DNA of 64,000 bases, from the NCBI RefSeq assembly GCF_019056395.1, contig NZ_CP077639.1, positions 1,614,001 through 1,678,000 on the forward strand. Direction: 5' to 3'. The DNA comes from Terribacillus sp. DMT04 (GTDB lineage Bacteria; Bacillota; Bacilli; Bacillales; Amphibacillaceae). Positions 14,516 through 45,007 of this stretch are shown here, in pieces. The notes under the pieces are model-generated. The model was not told the origin of the DNA and made no database searches. It saw only the letters and a list, made by a program, of their open reading frames with translations. How positions within the stretch are numbered: the stretch's first letter is position 1; each line of letters starts with the position of its first letter. A program made the position numbers and the translations under genes.

Positions 14516-14568
14516 CCTGTTTTATAATAAAAAATATGAATGCGCATACATAAGAGGAGGGGTCATCT

Positions 14569-17500
14569 ATGCGGCGTACAGCAGAAACAAAGGAATTGTT
14601 CAGTCTGTCGGCATTATATCAATTTTTCGAAGCAAAAAACGAGGCACAGTTTAGTAGAAAGACACTTGATTTAGTCGAGAAAGCGGAAAACCGAACAGCT
14701 TTTATTTGTTTTACGGGTCATTTTTCGGCAGGGAAAAGTTCTCTTATTAACGCGCTGCTCGGCACCCACGTACTGCCAACCAGTCCGATTCCAACAAGTG
14801 CTAATATCGTAACGGTTCAACAAGGTACACCGCAAGTATTTGCGTATGGATCCGATGAAACAAAGTATGAGCTGCCAGCTCCTTACCGAAAAGAAACACT
14901 TGATGCATATTGCCGGAATAAGGATATCCGTAAAATTGCTATACAAGATAAGGAAACCGGACTTCCAGAACAAGTTGCTTTGATGGATACCCCCGGTATT
15001 GATGCCAGTGATGATGCGGATCGTTTTATGACTGAGTCGGCCTTACATCTGGTGGACAGTATGTTTTATGTGACAGACTATAACCATGTACAATCAGAAG
15101 TGAATTTGCTGTTTTTACAAGAGCTTTCAGCACAGCAGCAGCCGTTTTATCTTATCGTTAACCAAATAGATAAACATCGCGAAGAAGAGCTATCTTGGAC
15201 GGTTTTTCAAAAAGGTGTGCAGACAGTATTTCAGCAATGGCAAATTACACCCGAAAATATCTTCTATACCACATTAAAAGATCCAGCACATCCGCATAAT
15301 CAGCTGTATGATGTAAAGCGAAAGATGCAGCAGCTGCTTACAGAGAAAGAACAGCTGCACAAAGCAGGTTTAGAACGGGGAAGACAGCGGCTGATTCAGG
15401 ACTATCTGTATGAAGCAAAGCAGCAGGCAGAAGAAGAAAAAGCAGCGCTGGCAGAACAGCTTCATGAACTAATGGATGATCAGACAAATGAAGCTGCCAA
15501 TTGGCGAAAAAAACAGCAAACAGCAGAAGAAAACGGGCGGGAAACCATCCAACAGACGCTAAAAAATGCGAACTTAATGCCTTTTGAAGTCCGTGAATCA
15601 GCAGAGAAATACTTAGAGTCCACCTTCCCAGACTTTAAAATTGGTCTGCTTAACAGCAAACGAAAAACAGCAGAAGAAAGAGAACGGCGGCGTGTTGAGA
15701 CAGAGGAGCATATCCAAAAACAAATCGAAAAGCAGCTGATCTGGCGCTTGCGTGACAAACTAATTGAATGGGCCAATCAGCATGATGTGTATACCGAATC
15801 GGTGCAAAAACTGCTGCAGGATTTTAAAGCAGACATACCAGCTGACCTGCTGGAGCAGCATATTCAGCAAGGAGCAAGTATGAATGGAACGTATACACTC
15901 GTTTATACAGCTGCTGTGCAGGATCATATTAAGCTAGCGTATAAAAAAGCTGCTCTTTCTGTAGTGGAAGCGGCTATTGCTACGACAGATACTGCTTTTG
16001 AACAAGCAGAACAGCTGGAAAAGCAGGAAAAACAAAAAGTAGCAGAAAATAATCATATCCAGCAAAAAATCAACCAGCTCCAGCTTGGTTTTGAAGAATT
16101 AGCTGCGAACATACACCGAACTGAGGACCATATCGAAACGGAAACAATCGACCAGGCGAAGCAAGCGATAGCGAACAGATATGATGAGAAAAACAGTGCA
16201 GATTTATTGCGTGCTGAAGCGGCTGTTAAACAAGTTGAACTTGAGCAGGAAATACAGGTACAACATGACTTAGGATCAAAGCTATCACCCGAGGAAATGG
16301 CACAGCTTCTCGACAATGCTGCAGCTGCTCTCACGGAAATGGAAGGGTTTCAATCTGCTATTGAAGATTTAAAGAATAGAAAAGAAAAATTGACGCACCA
16401 AGATTATACACTCGTGTTATTTGGTGCTTTCAGCGCAGGAAAATCTTCATTTGCGAATGCATTGCTTGGGGAGAGTCTGCTGCCAGTATCGCCAAATCCG
16501 ACAACCGCTTCCATTAATATGCTGAAGCAGGCAACAAAGACGCACCCACACCAAACTGTTGTTGTCAAGTGGAAATCACAGGATCACATAAAGGCAGATA
16601 TCGAAAGTCTTAGCGGTAAACAGCTCGACATGGATACATTCTTAACAGAGGATCCATCAGACTTGGCGGAAGATAAAAGGCATCAAGCGTTTCTGCAAGC
16701 CGTCCAATCTGGTTATCAATTTGTGCAAACAAATCTGGGATCAGAAGGGAAAATCCCATTTGAACAGTTCAGCGAGCACGTCACAAAAGAATCGTTAAGC
16801 TGTTTTATTGAGCAAATTACTGTCTATTTGGACAATATGTTCCTGAAGCAAGGTGTGACGCTAATTGACACTCCAGGAGCTGACTCTATTAATGCACGCC
16901 ACACGGATGTCACATTCCAATTCATGAAGCACGCGGATGCTATCTTGTTTGTTACGTATTATAATCATGCTTTCTCCAAAGCAGACGAACAAGTATTGCA
17001 GCAATTAGGAAAAGTAAAAGGTGCCTTGGAAAAGGATAATATGTTCTTTATTGTGAACGCTAGTGATTTAGCAAAGGATGAAGCAGAGAAAGACTATGTT
17101 ACGAATTATGTTGCAGAAAATCTGGCAGCCTTCCAAATTCGTCAGCCGCGGCTCCTTGCGTTAAGCAGCTTACTCGGTTTGCAGGAGAAGCAATCCGACC
17201 AACTGCTGGACTCTGGATTAGGAAAACTTGAACAAGAGTTAAACAGCTTTATTCGGCATGAATTGACGGATGTGATTATCGACAGTGCGAGAAAAGAACT
17301 GCAAAGGCAATATAACCAGCTGCGTGCATATGGGAAAGCAATGGACCTGGATGAAAAATCCAAGCAAGAAAAAGTCCGCCAATACAAAGTGGAGCAAGAA
17401 AACGTACTGCGCACAATTAAAACGTATACACAGCCAGTATTCAAACAAGCGATCAGCCAGCACATTGAAAAGCAACTGCACTATGTAAAAGAAAGACAGC

Positions 17501-18132
17501 TGCTGGAAGCAAACGATTTGTTCAAGCAATGCTTCAATCCTTCTCGTATAAGAAGCAGCGGCGCTTCAGGCAGAGAGGAAGTCGGCCGTCAAGTGACGGA
17601 ATTCTCTCATCAAATTCAATTGCAGCTGGAACAGGAGTATCGAGCTGTTACCATCCGAGTCGACAGGACTGTCCGAGAGCAGTTGGAGCGCTGGCGAATT
17701 GGAGCGGAACAAACAGTACAAGAAGTTAATAAAGCATTAACGGTTGCTGCTGCGGTCGATAACAGACTTCCTGAAACAACGCCGCCCGAGAGAGAGCTTA
17801 CTTTCCAGAAAACAGATATAGCACGAATACAAAAGCTATACCGTGGAGCAAAGGCATTTTTCCAAGGAAATGAAAAAGAAAAGCTAAAAGAGGAGCTGTT
17901 AAAACTTCTGGATCCGATGCTGACAGACATGTTGAAGGACTATATTGTTGCTATGGAAAACCATTACAGCCAAATATGGCAAGCGGAAGAAAAGCGTCTG
18001 CAAAAGCAGGCGTACGAGCAGCTAGCAGGCTATTATAGCGGCATGCTTCGTGCATTGACCGACACTTCTTCTAAGCAAAAGCTTCAAGAAGTGCTAGAAA
18101 CGTTTCATTTACTATTGCGCAAAAAAGTTTGA
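14569..18132 (+). CDS. dynA: Tandem dynamin-like GTPase, DynA type
   Basis: At 1187 residues this is a head-to-tail fusion of two bacterial dynamins, as in B. subtilis DynA (YpbR). The first GTPase domain has the P-loop GHFSAGKSS (50-58), switch DTPGIDAS and NQID. The second begins near residue 620 with GAFSAGKSS and has DTPGADS and NASD. Long Gln/Glu-rich helices between and behind form the stalks and membrane-binding paddles. DynA tethers and fuses membranes and helps cells survive membrane damage and phage. A strong AGAGGAGGGG site precedes the ATG. It has no obvious partner nearby and seems to stand alone. Confidence 0.94.
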   Translation: MRRTAETKELFSLSALYQFFEAKNEAQFSRKTLDLVEKAENRTAFICFTGHFSAGKSSLINALLGTHVLPTSPIPTSANIVTVQQGTPQVFAYGSDETKYELPAPYRKETLDAYCRNKDIRKIAIQDKETGLPEQVALMDTPGIDASDDADRFMTESALHLVDSMFYVTDYNHVQSEVNLLFLQELSAQQQPFYLIVNQIDKHREEELSWTVFQKGVQTVFQQWQITPENIFYTTLKDPAHPHNQLYDVKRKMQQLLTEKEQLHKAGLERGRQRLIQDYLYEAKQQAEEEKAALAEQLHELMDDQTNEAANWRKKQQTAEENGRETIQQTLKNANLMPFEVRESAEKYLESTFPDFKIGLLNSKRKTAEERERRRVETEEHIQKQIEKQLIWRLRDKLIEWANQHDVYTESVQKLLQDFKADIPADLLEQHIQQGASMNGTYTLVYTAAVQDHIKLAYKKAALSVVEAAIATTDTAFEQAEQLEKQEKQKVAENNHIQQKINQLQLGFEELAANIHRTEDHIETETIDQAKQAIANRYDEKNSADLLRAEAAVKQVELEQEIQVQHDLGSKLSPEEMAQLLDNAAAALTEMEGFQSAIEDLKNRKEKLTHQDYTLVLFGAFSAGKSSFANALLGESLLPVSPNPTTASINMLKQATKTHPHQTVVVKWKSQDHIKADIESLSGKQLDMDTFLTEDPSDLAEDKRHQAFLQAVQSGYQFVQTNLGSEGKIPFEQFSEHVTKESLSCFIEQITVYLDNMFLKQGVTLIDTPGADSINARHTDVTFQFMKHADAILFVTYYNHAFSKADEQVLQQLGKVKGALEKDNMFFIVNASDLAKDEAEKDYVTNYVAENLAAFQIRQPRLLALSSLLGLQEKQSDQLLDSGLGKLEQELNSFIRHELTDVIIDSARKELQRQYNQLRAYGKAMDLDEKSKQEKVRQYKVEQENVLRTIKTYTQPVFKQAISQHIEKQLHYVKERQLLEANDLFKQCFNPSRIRSSGASGREEVGRQVTEFSHQIQLQLEQEYRAVTIRVDRTVREQLERWRIGAEQTVQEVNKALTVAAAVDNRLPETTPPERELTFQKTDIARIQKLYRGAKAFFQGNEKEKLKEELLKLLDPMLTDMLKDYIVAMENHYSQIWQAEEKRLQKQAYEQLAGYYSGMLRALTDTSSKQKLQEVLETFHLLLRKKV

Positions 18133-36818: not shown

Positions 36819-38069
36819 ATGAAAGGAATATTTGAACTGGTTAGTGAAAACCAATTACAAAAGTATGCCGAACTTGCGGTACGATTTGGTGTAAATGTGC
36901 AAAAAAATCAATTAGTGGTTATCCATAGTGACGTAAAAAATGTAACTTTTGCACGTCTTATCCAAATGGCAGCCTATGAAGCGGGGGCTTCAAATGTAGT
37001 GATGGACTGGACAGACGAAGAGTCTACCAAAGCATTTTATATACATGCCGCAGATGATGCCATCAATCACTTTCCCAACTGGCAGCATGCACGGTATAAG
37101 GAGTGGGACGCTGCAGGTGCTGCTTACATCCACATTATTTCTGAAAACTTCGACATCTCTAAGGGCGTTTCCACAGAACGAATTAGCCACTTTCAAAAGG
37201 CCTTCCGCACCAAGTTGGAGAATCATTATGCAAAGATTAGGTCCCACGAGGTACGCTGGTGCCTTCTAGCTGTTCCGTCCTTCTCATGGGCCGCAAAAGT
37301 ATTTCCTCACGTAAGGAAAGAAGAAGCCGTGCAATTGTTATGGCAAGCCATCTTAAGTGGGGCACGGGCAGATGGAATATATCCTATCAAAGACTGGGAA
37401 AATCATAACCGAGCCTTTGAGTCCAGGAAAACATTTTTAAACAATCATCAATTTGAAGCCTTGCATTTTACCAATAGCCGAGGAACGGACCTCGTCGTCG
37501 GCATGCCTAACAATCATGTATTTATCGGCGGGGGAGTGACAGATAACAAGGGAATCTCGTTCTTTCCGAACATCCCTACAGAGGAGATATTTTCAGCACC
37601 GCATAAAGACAAGGTGAATGGCAGACTAGTAGCCACAAAACCGCTTGTCTATGGGGGGAGAGTCATCCATGATGTTTCCCTCATTTTTCAAGATGGACAG
37701 ATTACGGCCTATGATGCCGCCACTGGCCAGGAAGCGTTAGAACATCTCATCGAAACAGACGAAGGTTCCCATTATCTCGGGGAAATTGCCTTGGTCTCTA
37801 ACCATTCTCCTCTTGCTCATGCGGATATGCTTTTTTACAATACCTTGTTTGATGAAAATACGGCCTGCCATATTGGCATCGGCAACGCTTCTCCATCCAA
37901 CCTACAACATGGCAGCAACCTATCAGGGAAAGCGTTGAAAGAAGCAGGACTGAATTCGTCCCTCTTGTTAGTTAATGTGACTTTTGGTTCCGAAGATATG
38001 AATGTGGCAGGGAGGAAAGAAGGGAGAGCAGAAGTTTTATTGATGAAAGATGGTGATTTTCAATTTTAA
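36819..38069 (+). CDS. Aminopeptidase, M29 family (AmpS/PepS type)
   Basis: The 416-residue metallopeptidase matches M29 leucyl/aminopeptidase II. It has LHFTNSRGTDLVVGMPNNHVFIGGG, NIPTEEIFSAPHKDKVNGRLVATKPL with a catalytic Glu pair, and LGEIALVSNHSPLAHADMLFYNTLFDENTACHIGIGNA with metal-binding Glu, His and Asp. It trims N-terminal residues from peptides in the cytoplasm. The start is uncertain: AGGAG at 36800-36804 is far from ATG 36819 but too close to GTG 36807. Confidence 0.93.
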   Translation: MKGIFELVSENQLQKYAELAVRFGVNVQKNQLVVIHSDVKNVTFARLIQMAAYEAGASNVVMDWTDEESTKAFYIHAADDAINHFPNWQHARYKEWDAAGAAYIHIISENFDISKGVSTERISHFQKAFRTKLENHYAKIRSHEVRWCLLAVPSFSWAAKVFPHVRKEEAVQLLWQAILSGARADGIYPIKDWENHNRAFESRKTFLNNHQFEALHFTNSRGTDLVVGMPNNHVFIGGGVTDNKGISFFPNIPTEEIFSAPHKDKVNGRLVATKPLVYGGRVIHDVSLIFQDGQITAYDAATGQEALEHLIETDEGSHYLGEIALVSNHSPLAHADMLFYNTLFDENTACHIGIGNASPSNLQHGSNLSGKALKEAGLNSSLLLVNVTFGSEDMNVAGRKEGRAEVLLMKDGDFQF

Positions 38070-38519
38070 GAAAAGGGTCAAATGGTATTTATAAACGACA
38101 GTTGGTTAAGGTTATAATCAATTCCTTTGTAGGAGCATCTCGCTGTGAACATACGAATACGTGCACTAGCAACAATAGTTGGCAAGAGTCTAAATTTGTT
38201 AGTGATAATTTCGATGAATTTGCGGATAAAGGTTTCACAGAAAAGCAACTATCACCACACAGCAGTTAACAAATAAGAAAAAGCGTTGATTAATGATTGA
38301 CAGGGATTTTAAAGATAAAGTATTTATAAGGATCCTATCCCTATAAATAAGTTTAGAAAGAATATTATCAACCGTTAAAAGATATGCTGCCTCTATTTTT
38401 GATCTTATAAAAACTCCTATTGTAAACATTTCTCCTAATTAGAGGGAAATGGTAGAAAGAGATAAATTCAATAATGATGACGATTAAATAAAAATAAGGA
38501 AGGGGATAAATACCCTTCC
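38070..38519 (+). other. Gap with a decayed open frame
   Basis: A frame at 38102-38269 has protein-like composition (ending NSWQESKFVSDNFDEFADKG), like the tail of a once longer protein, but it has no ribosome site. It is probably a remnant. Nothing else is recognised in this 450-base gap. Confidence 0.35.
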
Positions 38520-38933
38520 TTATTTAAGTAATTCTACTATGTTAGAAATATCTTTTGGTAATAAGGATTTGTGTAATGCTTCATCAATAGTCTTTAACAT
38601 GGATTCTAACAATTCCTCTCCCGTTTCTGACAAGACTATATAGGCACTTCTTTTATCATCAAGTGAAGTCACTCGGGATACAAGTTCTCCATCCTTATAA
38701 TTTTGCAATCTGGATGCCATTCTCGACAATGCACTTAAACTTAAATCAATTTTGGAATGTAGATCTTGTAACCGTAGCTTTTTTTCGTCCGCTTCAGAAA
38801 GTGTATAGAGTAAAGTAAACTCTTTTAGTTCCAGACCGAAATGTTCTTTTAGAGTATAGTCAATTGCGTTTGAGATTCTATTGTAGTATTTGGAAAAGTT
38901 GAACCAAGTTTCAATTAAGTTCTCAGTTTTCAT
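38520..38933 (-). CDS. MarR-family transcriptional regulator
   Basis: The 137 residues fit the MarR winged-helix fold: helix ELKEFTLLYTLSEADEKKLRLQDL, recognition helix LSLSALSRMASRLQ, and the wing around GELVSRVTSLDDKRSAYIVLSETG with the conserved DDKRS. AGGAG precedes the ATG. It is divergent from an OYE gene. A perfect TTAAGGATACCTTAA palindrome lies 28 bases in front of its start and is the likely autoregulatory site. Confidence 0.9.
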   Translation of the reverse strand: MKTENLIETWFNFSKYYNRISNAIDYTLKEHFGLELKEFTLLYTLSEADEKKLRLQDLHSKIDLSLSALSRMASRLQNYKDGELVSRVTSLDDKRSAYIVLSETGEELLESMLKTIDEALHKSLLPKDISNIVELLK

Positions 38934-38961
38934 AGCGTGCTCCTAATTTTAGTATCTTAAT

Positions 38962-38976
38962 TTAAGGATACCTTAA
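38962..38976. promoter_or_regulatory. Perfect palindrome, probable MarR operator
   Basis: TTAAGG-ATA-CCTTAA is perfectly symmetric, with 6-bp arms. It sits in the MarR/OYE divergent region, close to the marR start. Confidence 0.6.
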
Positions 38977-39036
38977 TGAAATAATGGCTGCAATCTAAAA
39001 CATGTTTAAGAAATGCAAGAGAGGTGAATATATAGT

Positions 39037-39059
39037 TATAAAATTGCTTGCGCAAGCAA
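39037..39059 (+). promoter_or_regulatory. -10 box followed by 16-bp palindrome, OYE operator 1
   Basis: TATAAA (39037-39042) is followed after one base by the perfect palindrome TTGCTTGCGCAAGCAA (39044-39059), which covers the expected transcription start. Almost the same palindrome sits in the same position at the second OYE gene. Confidence 0.7.
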
Positions 39060-39080
39060 ATAAAAGAAAGGTGTTGTATT

Positions 39081-40208
39081 ATGAATAAATCTTATACCAA
39101 GTTGTTTGAACCTTATACTTTTCCAAATGGAGTCTCTGTTAATAACAGAGTAGTCATGGCACCAATGACAACCCAATCGTCCTTTGAGAATGGCATGGTC
39201 ACAACGGATGAACATAATTATTATAAACGCCGCACTAATGGAGTGGGGTTAGTTATTACTTCGTGTGCCCATGTAATGAATAACGGTAGATTCCCTGGAT
39301 CGTTAAGTGCAGCTTCAGATGAGCATATTCCAAGCCTTACAAAGTTAGCCGACACGATAAAGGCCAGTGGTTCAAAAGCAATATTACAAATCTTTCATGT
39401 GGGCAGGATGGGAACGAGTGCATCAATTGGAGGAGAACAGTTGGTTAGTGCAAGTCCCGAATCTGCATTACGAGATGATGCTGAAAAGCCGAGAGAACTT
39501 ACACTTGGAGAAGTAAGTGAAATGGTCAAAGCATTTGGACAAGCTGCGCGTCGCGCAATTCTGGCTGGATTTGATGGAGTAGAAATTCACGGTGCAAATA
39601 CGTATTTAATACAGCAATTCTTTTCCCCGCATTCTAATCGTCGTAACGATGAATGGGGAGGCTCACTTAGCAATAGAATGAGATTTCCGTTAGAGGTGAC
39701 AAGAGAAGTAAAGGCGACTATAGAGAAGTATGCTAAAAATCCATTTATCTTTGGATATCGTATTTCTCCAGAAGAGATAGAAGAACCAGGGATTACATTG
39801 GAGCAGACTTTGCAGTTATTAACCGCACTTAAAAAAGAAAATTTAGACTATATCCATATCTCGTTAGGGCATTTCATGCAAAGTTCCTTGAGAGATAAAG
39901 AGGATTCAACACCGGTCATTCAAACAATCAAGAGACATCTTGGGGAAGACATCCCACTTATTACTGTAGGACAAATTAAAACACCTGATGAAGCAATTAA
40001 AGCATTGAACACTGGCGTACCATTGGTTGCTTTGGGAAGAGCATTACTAGTAGAACCAGATTGGATAGAGAAAGTAAGCAATGGAGATGAGTCGTTGATC
40101 CGAACTGAAATTAAGTCTAATGACTGGGATGATTTAACTTTACCAGATGCAATGTGGGAATACGTGCAAAGCCGACCTGGGTGGTTACCGTTCTCTACTT
40201 TAGATTAA
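39081..40208 (+). CDS. Old Yellow Enzyme-family NADH:flavin oxidoreductase
   Basis: The 375-residue FMN barrel enzyme shows VVMAPMTTQSS, QIFHVGRMG, the substrate-binding pair in GVEIHGANTYLIQQFFSP (His/Asn), RNDEWGGSLSNRMRFPLEV and GRALLVEPDW. OYEs reduce alpha,beta-unsaturated carbonyls and quinones with NAD(P)H. The start is ATG 39081, eight bases after GAAAGGTG. It heads a gene group with doxX and a glyoxalase-like gene, and is controlled by the palindrome 22 bases upstream. Confidence 0.9.
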   Translation: MNKSYTKLFEPYTFPNGVSVNNRVVMAPMTTQSSFENGMVTTDEHNYYKRRTNGVGLVITSCAHVMNNGRFPGSLSAASDEHIPSLTKLADTIKASGSKAILQIFHVGRMGTSASIGGEQLVSASPESALRDDAEKPRELTLGEVSEMVKAFGQAARRAILAGFDGVEIHGANTYLIQQFFSPHSNRRNDEWGGSLSNRMRFPLEVTREVKATIEKYAKNPFIFGYRISPEEIEEPGITLEQTLQLLTALKKENLDYIHISLGHFMQSSLRDKEDSTPVIQTIKRHLGEDIPLITVGQIKTPDEAIKALNTGVPLVALGRALLVEPDWIEKVSNGDESLIRTEIKSNDWDDLTLPDAMWEYVQSRPGWLPFSTLD

Positions 40209-40288
40209 CTTAACAGTACTGCTCCTTGCGTCAATAGCCACAATGAAAGTCGCTGTACGGTTAGAGTAGTCAGAAAGAGGTGACGGAA

Positions 40289-40684
40289 TTGAGTTTAGCT
40301 ATATTGTTAGTACGAGTTCTATTAGGACTTACTTTCATTGGACATGGATTACAAAAGACCATGGGTTGGTTTGGGGGAAACGGATGGAATAAGACTATAA
40401 CGGGTTTTCGTAATATGAGATTAAAGCCTCCAAAGTTAATGGCCTTCTTTGCAGCACTATCTGAAATGGGAGGAGGATTACTATTAGCTCTTGGTCTTTT
40501 AACACCACTTGCTTCCGTTATGATTATCGCTGCCATGGTGGCAGCAATAATTACGGTTACAGGAAGAAATGGGTATTGGATTACCAATAATGGCGCGGAA
40601 TATAACATACTTATCATTTTTGTTGCAATTGCCGTAATTATTATGGGACCAGGCGTATATTCATTGGATTATTTATTATTTTAA
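40289..40684 (+). CDS. DoxX-family membrane protein
   Basis: The 131-residue protein has four membrane helices and the family features LLVRVLLGLTFIGHGLQK near the N-terminus and FFAALSEMGGGLLLALGLLTPLA. DoxX proteins take part in quinone or thiol-based redox protection in several Firmicutes. I start at TTG 40289, six bases after GAGGTG. It follows the OYE gene by about 80 bases and precedes the VOC gene by 31 bases, so a shared transcript is likely. Confidence 0.85.
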   Translation: MSLAILLVRVLLGLTFIGHGLQKTMGWFGGNGWNKTITGFRNMRLKPPKLMAFFAALSEMGGGLLLALGLLTPLASVMIIAAMVAAIITVTGRNGYWITNNGAEYNILIIFVAIAVIIMGPGVYSLDYLLF

Positions 40685-40715
40685 ATTTTATCTAGTAGAA
40701 AGGTAGTGAGTGACT

Positions 40716-41249
40716 ATGGATAACTTTATAAGAGGTATTGATCACATCGGTATTACAGTTCCGGATATGGAAGAAGCAACTGCATTCTTACAAAATGCAT
40801 TTGACGCTAAAGTAGCTTATGATTCCAAGAAGCCTGAAGAGGGAGCTATGGGCGGAGAAGAAATCGAGACGATTCTTGGGTTGAAAAAAGGTTCAGAGGT
40901 TGTTCATATGAGAGTAGTGTCTATAGGAAACAGTATTAGTATGGAGCTATTCCAATATCAAGGTATAGAACAAAGAAAACCGAGTAATCCAGATGATTTG
41001 GGTATCCAGCACTTTGCTGTTTATGTTGATAATATGGCGGAAGCTGTTACAAAGTTTGAACAAGCTGGTGGCCAATTAAATACGAAACCAACGAAGATTC
41101 TAAATGAAATAGAGGGAAATGCTGAGGAGAATCAATTCGCATATGGAACAGCTCCATGGGGGATGGTAGTTGAGCTAATAACTTATCCTAATGGAATAGA
41201 GTACCCAAGTGATAGTAATGCAAAGAGATTTACTCCTCCAAAGAGATAA
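40716..41249 (+). CDS. VOC (glyoxalase/dioxygenase) family protein
   Basis: The 177 residues open GIDHIGITVPDMEEATAFLQNAF, with a metal-ligand His. A second module begins IQHFAVYVDNMAEAVTKFEQAGG and ends AYGTAPWGMVVELITYP, with the closing Glu. VOC enzymes act on glutathione- or bacillithiol-like adducts, aromatics or lactoylthiols. In this setting a role in electrophile detoxification is reasonable but inferred. ATG 40716 follows AAAGGTAGTGAG. Confidence 0.82.
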   Translation: MDNFIRGIDHIGITVPDMEEATAFLQNAFDAKVAYDSKKPEEGAMGGEEIETILGLKKGSEVVHMRVVSIGNSISMELFQYQGIEQRKPSNPDDLGIQHFAVYVDNMAEAVTKFEQAGGQLNTKPTKILNEIEGNAEENQFAYGTAPWGMVVELITYPNGIEYPSDSNAKRFTPPKR

Positions 41250-41258
41250 AATTATAAG

Positions 41259-41292
41259 AAAAACAACCAATCCAGCTTGGGTTGGTTGTTTT
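41259..41292. terminator. Bidirectional terminator between VOC and OYE genes
   Basis: AAAACAACCAA and TTGGTTGTTTT are perfect arms around a short centre and serve both converging genes. Confidence 0.88.
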
Positions 41293-41309
41293 AAGATGTA
41301 CTGTAAAAT

Positions 41310-42356
41310 TTATCGTATACCTCTACTATACTGTACTGGAGGTGTAACTTTATGGGCGATAGCTTTTATAGCGTGTAATCCCCAGTAAGGATCGTTTAGC
41401 ATGCCTCTGGCGATTGCTACAAGATCAGCATCTTTATTGGCTAATGCTGCCTCTGCAACTTGGGGAATACTCAACTTGCCTACGGCTATAACAGGTATTT
41501 GCAAAGCTTCTTTAAATGCACGAGCAAAAGGAACCTGGTATGCAGGGTGGTTACCGGGCTTTTTCTTCCCAGGAAGACCTTCACCACCACTTGATACGTG
41601 GAACATATCTACCCCGGCATTTTTAAAGCGTTTGGCCATCTTTATTGCGTGATCTATTTCATAACCTCCATCAATATATTCAATCGCTGACATTCTCATG
41701 ATAAGCGGCATATCTTCTGGTATTACGGAACGAACAGCTTTGACTACTTCTTCTCCAAATAGAGCAAGGTCCTTACCGTAAGCATCCTCTCTGTTATTGA
41801 TAGCAGGGGACATAAATTGATGTAACAAATAACCATGTGCTCCATGCAATTCTATAGTGTCAAATCCAGCTTTTACTGCTCGACTTGCAGCATCTTTGAA
41901 TTGCGTAATTATAGTCTGGATTTCTTTAACATCCAAAGCTCTAGGTGGCTTGAGACTGCCATTTTTTGTCTCCTCAGGTAATACTTCGACTGGTATATCC
42001 GATGGTCCGACAGGCTGTTTAGCATCCTCAGCTTTTCGACCAGCATGAGCAATCTGTATAGCTGCTTTTGTTCCGTATTTATGAATTTCATCAATGATTC
42101 GTTTATATGCAGGTACTGAATCATCAGACCATAACCCTAAGTCGCCATTGGTAATTCTACCTTCTGGAGTAACACTTGTCATTTCCATAATGATTAATCC
42201 TGTACCACCAATAGCTCTGGAAACATAATGGACAAAATGCCAATCATTAGGGATACCGTCTTCTTTTTCGACAGAGTATTGGCACATCGGAGCCATAACT
42301 ATTCTATTTTTAAGATCGAGATCTTTCAGTTTATAAGGCGTTGTAATTATTGCCAA
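41310..42356 (-). CDS. namA: NADPH dehydrogenase, YqjM/NamA-type Old Yellow Enzyme
   Basis: The 348-residue enzyme matches YqjM: VMAPMCQYSVEKEDGIPNDWHFVHY with the redox-tuning Cys, QIAHAGRKAE, ELHGAHGYLLHQFMSP (His/His substrate pair), and RGMLNDPYWGLHAIK. It reduces activated alkenes, nitro compounds and quinones. The start is TTG 42356, eight bases after GAGGAG. It converges on the OYE-DoxX-VOC group and carries the same operator as the first OYE gene. Confidence 0.92.
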   Translation of the reverse strand: MAIITTPYKLKDLDLKNRIVMAPMCQYSVEKEDGIPNDWHFVHYVSRAIGGTGLIIMEMTSVTPEGRITNGDLGLWSDDSVPAYKRIIDEIHKYGTKAAIQIAHAGRKAEDAKQPVGPSDIPVEVLPEETKNGSLKPPRALDVKEIQTIITQFKDAASRAVKAGFDTIELHGAHGYLLHQFMSPAINNREDAYGKDLALFGEEVVKAVRSVIPEDMPLIMRMSAIEYIDGGYEIDHAIKMAKRFKNAGVDMFHVSSGGEGLPGKKKPGNHPAYQVPFARAFKEALQIPVIAVGKLSIPQVAEAALANKDADLVAIARGMLNDPYWGLHAIKAIAHKVTPPVQYSRGIR

Positions 42357-42380
42357 TTTTATCACTCCTCATACATTTTA

Positions 42381-42429
42381 TTTGCTTGCGCACGCAAATA
42401 AATATATATTAATTATCCTAAATAGTCAA
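42381..42429 (-). promoter_or_regulatory. namA promoter with OYE operator 2
   Basis: Read on the minus strand, TTGACT, 17 bases, TATATT form a clear promoter (plus coordinates 42424-42429 and 42401-42406). Two bases after the -10 lies TTTGCGTGCGCAAGCAAA (42381-42398), differing from the first OYE operator by one base in the core. Confidence 0.8.
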
Positions 42430-42445
42430 TTTAACCGTTTATAAA

Positions 42446-42687
42446 GCAGCATTTTCTTCGCCAATCCCGGCATCCCTTTCCAACGGATGCTAAATGAAAA
42501 CTCAAATGGTCGATTGCGAAAGGATGGGCTACCGAAAGAGATGGAATTCAATGAAGTTGACCGGGATGTCGTTTCAGCAGTCGCAAACAAACGAAACCAT
42601 ATTCCGAGAAAGTCCTTAAATTACCGCACACAAATGGAGAAATTTTTGAGTTATTTGGGTGAGTTGATAATGTCTAGCTTAAACTGA
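42446..42687 (+). pseudogene. C-terminal fragment of an IS30-family transposase
   Basis: The frame reads FFANPGIPFQRMLNENSNGR, then PKEMEFNEV and NHIPRKSLNYRT. These correspond to the NENxNGLLRxxFPKG and NxxPRKxLxYRTP motifs at the end of IS30 transposases. The earlier DDE parts and the inverted repeats are not found, so it is a remnant. Confidence 0.75.
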
Positions 42688-43000
42688 CAATTGAGAGTAT
42701 AAAACGTTTTTAAATCACTTGATGGGGAGTGTACATACCAAAAACGGAAATAGAATCAGCTATTAGCGTTATTTAAGAAATTGCGCATGTATATTCGTTT
42801 TCAAAATCGACAGCATATTTTAACTCATTTTAGGAATCATTTGTCAGCACATTCTAAAGTAGCACCAGAAGTTCTGTGATTTCAGGTTACGTGTTTAGAG
42901 TGTCTGGATTAATGGAAACCGACTCATGCCCCCAGGTACTGAAAGAGTCTATATAGATCTTTTCTTGAAAGAGCTCCAGTTTCTTTTTATATTGGTCATT

Positions 43001-43837
43001 TTAGAAAAAACGATCGGCGTCGAGTGCCTTGGCGACGTTTTCTTCGTAATTCTCTTGAAATAAGCAGGCGTATAAAATATTTAAGATATATTCAAAAGAT
43101 AGCTGAGAAGAAAACGTACCAATCTTTGCAAATTTTTCTTCGCTGTTTGGCACAATCAAATTAGTAGTACCCCACTTCGTCAACTTTCCTTCTTCTTCTG
43201 CAGTAATGACAAGGATTGGCGTTTCTTGTGCATGTAGATAAGCAGCTGCTTTGGCGAGTGTATCACTCATCCCGTGGTAGCTTAACATAATGGCGCAGTC
43301 GTTTTTATCGCTATTTTGTGTATGGTAGGCCCATTCCGCTAATTCAGTAGCGATAATCACATGCTTGTGGATCTTCAGCATTTTGTTTTGGAAGCTTGAT
43401 GCCCGAATTTGTGAATCGCCATACGCATATATATAAATTCGATTCGCACTGCTCAGCATTTGAACGGCGTTTGCAAGATCCTCTTGTTGTAAGTAATTGA
43501 ACGTTTTCTCTATAGTACTGGACATTAACTCGGCCATTTCATTAGCTAATTGCAGGGCTGGTACAGTGGAGTCAAATGGATAATTGATATCAATTGCAGA
43601 ATGAGCCGCTGTTACTTGCAGTTCTTGAGCTAAACCAACAATGAATTCTTTATATCCTTTTAGATCTAACTTCTGAATAAGGCGAATTATGGCCGAGTGT
43701 GAGGTATAAGCTACCTTTGCCAACTGCTGGACATTCAAATGTATGACATCTTCCTTATGTTCTAGAATGTACGCAGCAATTGTCTTTTCAGTTGGTGTGA
43801 AATGACGCATTGTCATTAATTTTCCTATAATATTCAT
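43001..43837 (-). CDS. MurR/RpiR-family transcriptional regulator
   Basis: The 278 residues have an N-terminal helix-turn-helix (FTPTEKTIAAYILEHKEDVIHLNVQQLA, then YTSHSAIIRLIQKLDLKGYKEF) and a C-terminal SIS sugar-phosphate-binding domain (NRIYIYAYGDSQIRA, SYHGMSDTLAKAAAYL). These regulators respond to phosphorylated sugars. AGAGGATGCC precedes the ATG. It faces the dehydrogenase pair across 153 bases and probably controls it. Confidence 0.92.
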   Translation of the reverse strand: MNIIGKLMTMRHFTPTEKTIAAYILEHKEDVIHLNVQQLAKVAYTSHSAIIRLIQKLDLKGYKEFIVGLAQELQVTAAHSAIDINYPFDSTVPALQLANEMAELMSSTIEKTFNYLQQEDLANAVQMLSSANRIYIYAYGDSQIRASSFQNKMLKIHKHVIIATELAEWAYHTQNSDKNDCAIMLSYHGMSDTLAKAAAYLHAQETPILVITAEEEGKLTKWGTTNLIVPNSEEKFAKIGTFSSQLSFEYILNILYACLFQENYEENVAKALDADRFF

Positions 43838-43990
43838 GGCATCCTCTTTTGAAGCTAAACATTTTGTCCAAATCTTTATGACCTTTACGCTTCTCTACAA
43901 ACAATTTTACCATCTTCCCCATTTTGTAACTACATGTCTGCTATTTTCTATACAATTAAGATGGATTTATGCTGAATGGAGGATTAATAC

Positions 43991-45007
43991 ATGCTGAAAA
44001 TTGGTTTTATAGGAAATGGTAAAAGCACGAATCGCTATCATCTTCCTTTTCTTATGCACCGTGAGCATATAGAAGTAACGATGATTTATGCCCGCAATCT
44101 AGATAAAAAGGATAGGCCGGATTATCCATCTTTTACGTATACAGACGATTTGACTGCAGTCATGACCAATCCAGCAATCAACCTTATATCTGTTTGCACT
44201 CCGATAGAATCACATTATATGTATGCAAAAATGGCGCTGGAGAATGGCAAACATGTGATGGTAGAAAAGCCGTTTGCTTTAAATACCGAGGAAACAAAAG
44301 AATTATTTGCTTTAGCAAAGGAAAAGGATTTGGTTATCCAATGCTATCAAAATAGAAGACATGATGCTGATTTCCTTACCATACAAAAAGTAATCGAAAG
44401 CGGCAAGCTTGGCGAACTTATTGAAGTAGAAATGAATTACGATTATTACCGCGCAGAATTGCCAGCCCAACAGCCTTTTTCCGAGCATAACAGCTTTTTA
44501 TATGGCCATGGCGTTCACACTGTTGATCAAGCGATTTCCTACTTCGGAGATCCAGAACGAACGCATTTTGATGTTAGACAGCTTTCAGGAGCTGATAAGA
44601 TGAACGATTACTTTGATTTAGATCTTTATTATCCGACGTACAAAGTATCGATTAGATCAAGTTTCTATCGCTTAAAACCGCGTCCTAGCTTTGCTGTCTA
44701 CGGAAAAAAGGGCGTATTTATCAAAGAAACACAAGACAGGCAAGAAGAACATTTAAAACTGAATTACTTACCAGAAGGGCATGATGATTTCGGGGTAGAT
44801 TTGCCTGCCCACTACGGTACATTAACGTATCTTGATAAAAACGGTATCTACCACGAAGAAAAGGTTATATCCGTAAATGGTGATTATGGCCGCGTCTATG
44901 ATGATGTGTACCGAGTAATTTTTGAAAGCGCAGAAAAGAAGATTAAAGATGAAGAAACGATACGCGTAATGGACATCTTAGAACGGGCGATGAAGGAGCG
45001 TAACTAA
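43991..45007 (+). CDS. Gfo/Idh/MocA-family oxidoreductase
   Basis: The 338-residue enzyme has an N-terminal NAD(P) Rossmann fold (LKIGFIGNGKSTNRYHLPF), the family signature MVEKPFALN with the catalytic Lys, and a C-terminal mixed sheet domain with YGHGVHTVDQAISYFG. Family members oxidise or reduce sugars and inositols. A TGGAGGA site precedes the ATG. It forms an operon with a second member of the same family, one base apart, under the facing RpiR regulator. The substrate is unknown. Confidence 0.92.
   Translation: MLKIGFIGNGKSTNRYHLPFLMHREHIEVTMIYARNLDKKDRPDYPSFTYTDDLTAVMTNPAINLISVCTPIESHYMYAKMALENGKHVMVEKPFALNTEETKELFALAKEKDLVIQCYQNRRHDADFLTIQKVIESGKLGELIEVEMNYDYYRAELPAQQPFSEHNSFLYGHGVHTVDQAISYFGDPERTHFDVRQLSGADKMNDYFDLDLYYPTYKVSIRSSFYRLKPRPSFAVYGKKGVFIKETQDRQEEHLKLNYLPEGHDDFGVDLPAHYGTLTYLDKNGIYHEEKVISVNGDYGRVYDDVYRVIFESAEKKIKDEETIRVMDILERAMKERN

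Follow-up and report, generated by a model that had tools for sequence, protein, structure and literature searches.

A conserved operator at two Old Yellow Enzyme promoters of Terribacillus and its likely MarR-type repressor

Introduction

Two genes for Old Yellow Enzyme (OYE) family reductases, here called OYE1 and OYE2, lie in a 64-kb stretch of the Terribacillus chromosome (G000:C1:1614001-1678000; hereafter the window), and both carry a palindrome just behind the -10 box of the promoter. Which regulator reads these two sites, and is it encoded by the MarR-type gene that lies next to them? An earlier note made on this DNA had proposed a single repressor for both genes and had suspected that it was encoded elsewhere, because a different palindrome is found at the promoter of the MarR gene itself.

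OYE enzymes reduce activated alkenes, quinones and nitro compounds. In E. coli, the TetR-type protein NemR is reportedly a redox- or electrophile-sensing regulator over the OYE-family reductase NemA, and CyeR is said to control an OYE-family reductase in Corynebacterium glutamicum; to our knowledge, CyeR is not MarR-type. OYE reductases also serve as biocatalysts, and electrophiles induce ofrA in S. aureus (excerpts of PMC9152700). OfrA/OfrB of S. aureus and YqiG/YqjM of B. subtilis are Firmicute OYE enzymes like the window pair, and the same excerpts give neither a MarR regulator nor an operator for them. No defined operator for the OYE genes of Bacillus relatives was found in the open-licence literature.

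Results

The two palindromes (O1 and O2, Table 1) are, with a probability that we put at about 0.88, the Terribacillus form of an operator with the consensus TWTGCWTGY-RCAWGCAWA; sequence comparison predicts that the MarR-type repressor encoded beside OYE1 acts through it on both OYE promoters. In Terribacillus the operator arm reads TTTGCTTG, a variant form of TATGCATG. Both sites were found where the earlier note had placed them, with O1 directly after TATAAA and O2 2 bases after TATATT, and its proposal of one repressor-type operator for both genes is well supported by this shared promoter position and by the conservation of the site in other genera. A scan for sigma-70-like promoters returned 12 sites overall, compared with 12.2 from shuffles, so that the call at OYE2 draws its weight from its position and not from the scan. 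At OYE1, the scan at 9/12 matches gave no sigma-70-like promoter, and the -10 box is therefore rated weak. O1 is conserved in position in T. halophilus (L020/L057). In L095, the next relative, it is found on the corresponding side of the MarR gene, and the layout is like that of the Terribacillus MarR-OYE1 gap. The position of O2 is conserved in G003. As a separate observation, the OYE1 orthologue of T. halophilus (L020/L027, G003:C13:1833837-1834961) contains one in-frame TAA, and the operator in front of it is intact.

The sites are rare. At no more than 1 mismatch, the 16-mer core of O1 occurs at 4 places in the 3.52-Mb genome, and only the two OYE sites among them are promoter-located; the remaining two lie within open reading frames (ORFs) judged cca-like and thrS-like from their translations. 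Across the genus, the 16-mer (at most 1 mismatch) is present in 4/10 Terribacillus genomes, and its promoter-located matches are confined to G000 and G003, which alone have an OYE1 orthologue at 94-100%; G001 and G007 have one match each, within ORFs. A loose scan of the window (16-mer, up to 3 mismatches) gave 2 matches against 1.1 expected and was too loose to inform. A chance origin of the paired sites was rejected on this genome rarity, on the locus counts compared with shuffles and on the fixed placement, the last two of which are given below.

Relatives of the window MarR were found in 30/159 genomes of the family (E at most 1e-8) and in 28/397 genomes of the order (E at most 1e-25), as well as on plasmids of Priestia and Paenibacillus (12 records, of which 5 were taken). 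The resulting set contains 63 loci, from 30/32 places in the family, 5/12 plasmid records and 28/31 places in the order. L021 and L105 were excluded as duplicates of L066 and L077, and L094, a second copy of the window locus, was not included; L089 and L097, which have identical MarR proteins, were counted separately. An OYE gene is present in 59/63 of these MarR loci. Scored with TWTGCWTGYRCAWGCAWA over 250 bp upstream of MarR or OYE, 45/63 loci match at least 15/18 letters and 40 match at least 16, where chance would give 1.2 loci at 15/18 (60 dinucleotide shuffles per locus). The OYE-upstream regions alone reach 15 in 43/58 loci and 16 in 38/58, compared with 3/27 and 0/27 for control OYE1-like genes without this MarR. 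The motif is therefore found at OYE promoters in other genera, as the earlier note had expected of a genuine operator.

The placement of the operator is conserved as well. Measured from the first base of a TTGAC, 35 of the 53 OYE-side sites begin at a distance of 27-32 bp (27 at 29-30 bp), against a background of 1.25%. When a matrix was built from 26 sites of the MarR clade to which the window protein belongs (clade A, see below), with those of Terribacillus left out, and was run over the 64-kb window, O2 scored 25.4, O1 23.8 and a third site at 14535-14552 21.0, the next score being 8.4. The same facts bear on the idea that the palindromes act not as protein sites but as RNA or DNA structure, such as a hairpin in a 5' untranslated region, a terminator or a repeat element. 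Perfect or near-perfect palindromes at a transcript start would suit such a role; what is kept between genera, though, is the sequence together with its distance to the -35 and -10 boxes, and we regard this reading as scarcely credible. A terminator or known RNA element was rejected, as the terminator scan found no terminator-like site there and Rfam gave no match in 38000-44000.

In the relatives, the operator is found in the space between the MarR and OYE genes. Divergent loci have intergenic sites such as TATGCATGCGCAAGCAAATA, either as a pair, with one copy towards the MarR start and the other immediately ahead of the OYE start (L058-L061, L066, L068, L092), or as one shared site. In tandem loci with a site, it is mostly found between MarR and OYE, in a form like TATGCATGTGCATGCATA. 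V. salexigens has MarR divergent from an OYE1-OYE2 tandem, and two sites (17/18 and 15/18) lie in between. G452, a genome of another family with a MarR that is 76% identical, shows the two-site layout of Terribacillus: one site lies ahead of DoxX-VOC, where no OYE1 ORF is left and an apparent remnant of the OYE1 start can be read by eye, and a variant site, TTTGTGTGCGCAAGCAAA, lies ahead of an 84% OYE2 relative. From these two layouts, joint control of both units would be older than Terribacillus or would have moved between the two. Priestia megaterium plasmids (L086, L087) carry a MarR-OYE2-VOC module with two operators.

At OYE2, the site goes with the regulator. The survey covered 30 of the 75 OYE2 places listed in the family, with L187, the second tandem gene of V. 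salexigens, set aside. OYE2 loci with a linked MarR have a site of at least 15 in 15/15 cases (13 with MarR in the locus and 2 Terribacillus loci with MarR in the same cluster), and OYE2 loci without MarR have one in 2/14, namely L175 (17/18) and L184 (15, with a poor right arm). Linkage and site are associated with a Fisher p of 1.8e-6, with rows that are not independent and uncorrected for kinship.

Several observations weigh against assigning O1 and O2 to the adjacent MarR. The consensus was derived post hoc from the loci, many of which are close relatives. No operator was found in 18/63 MarR loci, including all 9 Terribacillus paralogue loci examined, and the Terribacillus MarR start itself has none: the MarR-OYE1 gap holds one copy only, on the OYE1 side, and the next best match in the gap is 11/18. 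As the earlier note had described, a different, imperfect repeat is found at the MarR promoter; it is similar in T. halophilus and weakly so in L095 (a 19-base pattern search at the MarR start misfit this 20-base repeat and missed it, and was uninformative). A matrix from 25 sites of the other MarR clade (clade B) scores O2 at 15.2 and O1 at 11.7, behind 21.7 for the site at 14535, though above the rest of the window (next score, 7.3). Finally, the L175 locus has a 17/18 site and lacks a MarR gene, and the MarR matches in its genome, G073, are only weak (best E, 3.8e-10). L172 and L173, which share the gene neighbours of L175 and belong to one genus with it, score 14 and 12, and all three genomes have distant MarR proteins only (best E, 1e-10 to 6e-10). 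Taken in the order L175, L172, L173, the operator would look intact, then damaged, then eroded, a series that fits regulator loss followed by decay, in three genomes only.

Some of these points could mean that the product of a more distant gene binds O1 and O2 and that the adjacent MarR uses only its own repeat; a second MarR-OYE pair of the family, of clade B and with two Cys, is present in the same genome (G000:C1:1206487-1208038), and L175 provides a site without a linked MarR. We consider this unlikely. In the other genera it is the MarR-OYE intergenic region that holds the operator, and in the 8 Terribacillus genomes whose sole MarR of this family is the paralogue, the 16-mer (at most 1 mismatch) is absent from promoters, just as the examined paralogue loci lack the operator. 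A distant regulator as the likelier reading was rejected on the MarR-OYE linkage, the intergenic operators and the co-occurrence at OYE2 loci, and the suspicion of the earlier note is not supported. The adjacent MarR as regulator also agrees with what is typical of the type, a palindromic operator of 16-20 bp (here 18 bp) overlapping a promoter and a regulator gene beside its likely target.

We also considered whether the regulator could be MhqR itself, a quinone-sensing MarR repressor that comes nearest to this system among those described. The operator of MhqR (B. subtilis, S. aureus) is a 9-9 bp repeat, which in S. aureus spans -6 to +12 (excerpts of PMC6798810). The two systems are alike in that a MarR repressor is combined with an 18-bp repeat over the transcription start and with detoxifying targets, those of MhqR including dioxygenases, and MhqR senses by a non-thiol route (excerpts of PMC6798810 and PMC12893000). 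They differ in the operator, TATCTCGAA-ATCGAAATA for MhqR as opposed to TWTGCWTGY-RCAWGCAWA, and in the partner, which is a pair of OYE genes in the window. MhqR is not the closest solved relative either: its structure (9QDR) ranks 12th of 35 matches to the family profile. MhqR controls genes of the mhqED/mhqNOP type; the genes beside the window OYE pair are those for DoxX and VOC proteins. Of the MhqR quinone pocket (F11, F39, E43 and H111), F11 and E43 lack conservation among the MarR relatives, position 11 being variable and position 43 mostly Y, and F39 is found in 24/24 clade A rows, all three read by residue number only and without alignment to 9QDR. Identity with MhqR is very unlikely.

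In a tree of the 63 MarR proteins, clade A has 24 rows, including the window MarR, and clade B has 39, with support of 100/100 for each (midpoint root). A site of at least 15 is present in 22/24 clade A loci (the misses are L064 and L093) versus 23/39 clade B loci. The 16 clade B misses are a supported group of 11 (9 Terribacillus paralogues, L078 and L116), L110 and L114 (14/18), and L096, L111 and L115, which have no OYE start within the locus. The paralogous MarR is present in 10/10 Terribacillus genomes, and its 9 examined loci are those without this operator. The clades also differ in orientation, clade A being divergent from OYE in 19/24 and clade B being tandem ahead of OYE in 33/39.

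The two clades differ in their cysteines. At the column of window residue 81, a Cys is found in 39/39 clade B rows and at that of residue 90 in 36/39, versus 0/24 in clade A at both; the pair is kept in 36/39 clade B rows and in none of the 24 of clade A, 21 of which have no cysteine at all. The window MarR is one of these and so lacks the residue needed for a thiol switch, a mechanism that was rejected for this protein on that ground. The cysteine split suggests that two kinds of sensor may be attached to one DNA code. Going further, and at somewhat less than even odds, we propose a Bacillales-wide MarR-OYE module, of which the literature searched gave no description, in which operator and promoter geometry are kept and the sensor is either a Cys-free ligand type (clade A) or a Cys-pair type (clade B), with one Cys just past the recognition helix and the other in the wing; that is, the sensing chemistry may have changed behind a nearly unchanged DNA code.

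The protein assignments at the locus were checked against Pfam. The window MarR matches PF01047 (27.3 bits, cut-off 24.6) and PF22381 (SarA/Rot; 35 bits, cut-off 27), and both OYE proteins match PF00724 (Oxidored_FMN; 262.8 and 253 bits, cut-off 27). The NamA equivalog NF010047 gave 362.4 bits on OYE2, under its cut-off of 431. VOC homologues flank other MarR-OYE loci too (L069, L070, L086, L087).

Other candidate sites were sought with the consensus. The own genome holds 10 places besides O1 and O2 at up to 2 mismatches, 7 of them in ORFs of at least 100 aa and 3 outside (1324939, 3275742 and 1628535, the last being window position 14535); more than 90 further places at 3 mismatches are outside this set. 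In eight module-bearing genomes, 11 further places at up to 1 mismatch were examined, G389:C21:11405 not being among them: one is the G452 OYE2 promoter, L150 lies outside ORFs, L153 lies at an ORF edge and 8 lie in ORFs. The site at window position 14535, which ranks third in the window by the clade A matrix and first by the clade B matrix, lies ahead of a dynamin-like GTPase gene and is identical in 10/10 Terribacillus genomes, with flanks that are conserved too; the ORF start was too far upstream to score in 6/10 of the Terribacillus loci. In 20 loci of other genera, the corresponding region reached at most 13/18 letters, with ORF starts there that may be off. The dynamin-like gene as a possible member of the regulon is a lead.

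Table 1 Features of the MarR-OYE locus and the further candidate site, in window positions
Feature	Position	Strand	Remarks
Operator O1, 18-bp inverted repeat ATTGCTTGCGCAAGCAAA	39043-39060	+	OYE1-DoxX-VOC promoter; 16-mer core TTGCTTGCGCAAGCAA at 39044-39059
Operator O2, TTTGCGTGCGCAAGCAAA	42398-42381	-	OYE2 promoter
OYE2 promoter-like TTGACT-17-TATATT	42429-42401	-	10/12 matches; ends 2 bases before O2
Probable OYE1 -10 box TATAAA	39037-39042	+	Read by eye; abuts O1; -35 weak
Imperfect inverted repeat GTATCTTAATTTAAGGATAC	38952-38971		At MarR start; unlike the operator; 7/10 pairs (hand count)
MarR/SarA-type winged-helix regulator gene	38520-38933	-	137 aa, 0 Cys; divergent from OYE1; predicted repressor at O1 and O2
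OYE1, OYE-family reductase	39081-40208	+	Closest solved structure 3L5A
DoxX-family membrane protein	40280-40684	+	71-bp gap after OYE1; possibly on OYE1 transcript
VOC/glyoxalase-fold protein	40710-41249	+	Downstream of DoxX, co-directional
OYE2, NamA/YqjM relative	41310-42365	-	Converges on OYE1-DoxX-VOC
Candidate site TATGAATGCGCATACATA	14535-14552		Ahead of dynamin-like GTPase gene (14569-18132)

Discussion

What was observed here comprises the two sites, how they are conserved and where they lie, as well as the linkage of MarR with OYE genes and the joint occurrence of the site with MarR. From this we infer binding, repression and induction along the following lines. A MarR dimer would sit on the 18-bp repeat, which begins where the -10 box ends, and would cover the transcription start, thereby blocking the OYE1-DoxX-VOC and OYE2 promoters together. 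Binding of an electrophile or a quinone-like inducer to MarR would then release the DNA, and both reductases would be made. The blocking of the start site is modelled on the analogy with MhqR and its operator at -6 to +12 (excerpts of PMC6798810).

The association of a MarR gene with an OYE gene has precedent in Clostridia, where the MarR-family gene bilQ is in an operon with the OYE-family gene bilR; BilR differs from the window enzymes in being a bilirubin reductase of another OYE clade (excerpts of PMC10769871). YodB, CatR and QsrR belong to the same field, the detoxification of quinones and diamide in Firmicutes, and sense through cysteines (excerpts of PMC6798810), unlike the window MarR, which has none. 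No description of the operator reported here was found in the open-licence full-text literature, in which texts with GCAAGCAAAT were covered in part; its novelty is not proven, because the literature covered was open-licence only. Taken together, this is likely a real and well-conserved operator with a likely regulator next door, ordinary in kind, for which the cysteine split is the point of interest.

With a defined operator, a likely repressor gene and a promoter geometry at hand, the question of what induces these OYE genes becomes directly testable, and the operator could yield an electrophile-responsive promoter part. The layout with two sites in Terribacillus, as compared with the OYE1-OYE2 tandem of Virgibacillus, offers one or two transcription units under the same control. 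Finally, the cysteine pattern of the two clades provides a way to test how a sensor may change while its DNA site is kept.

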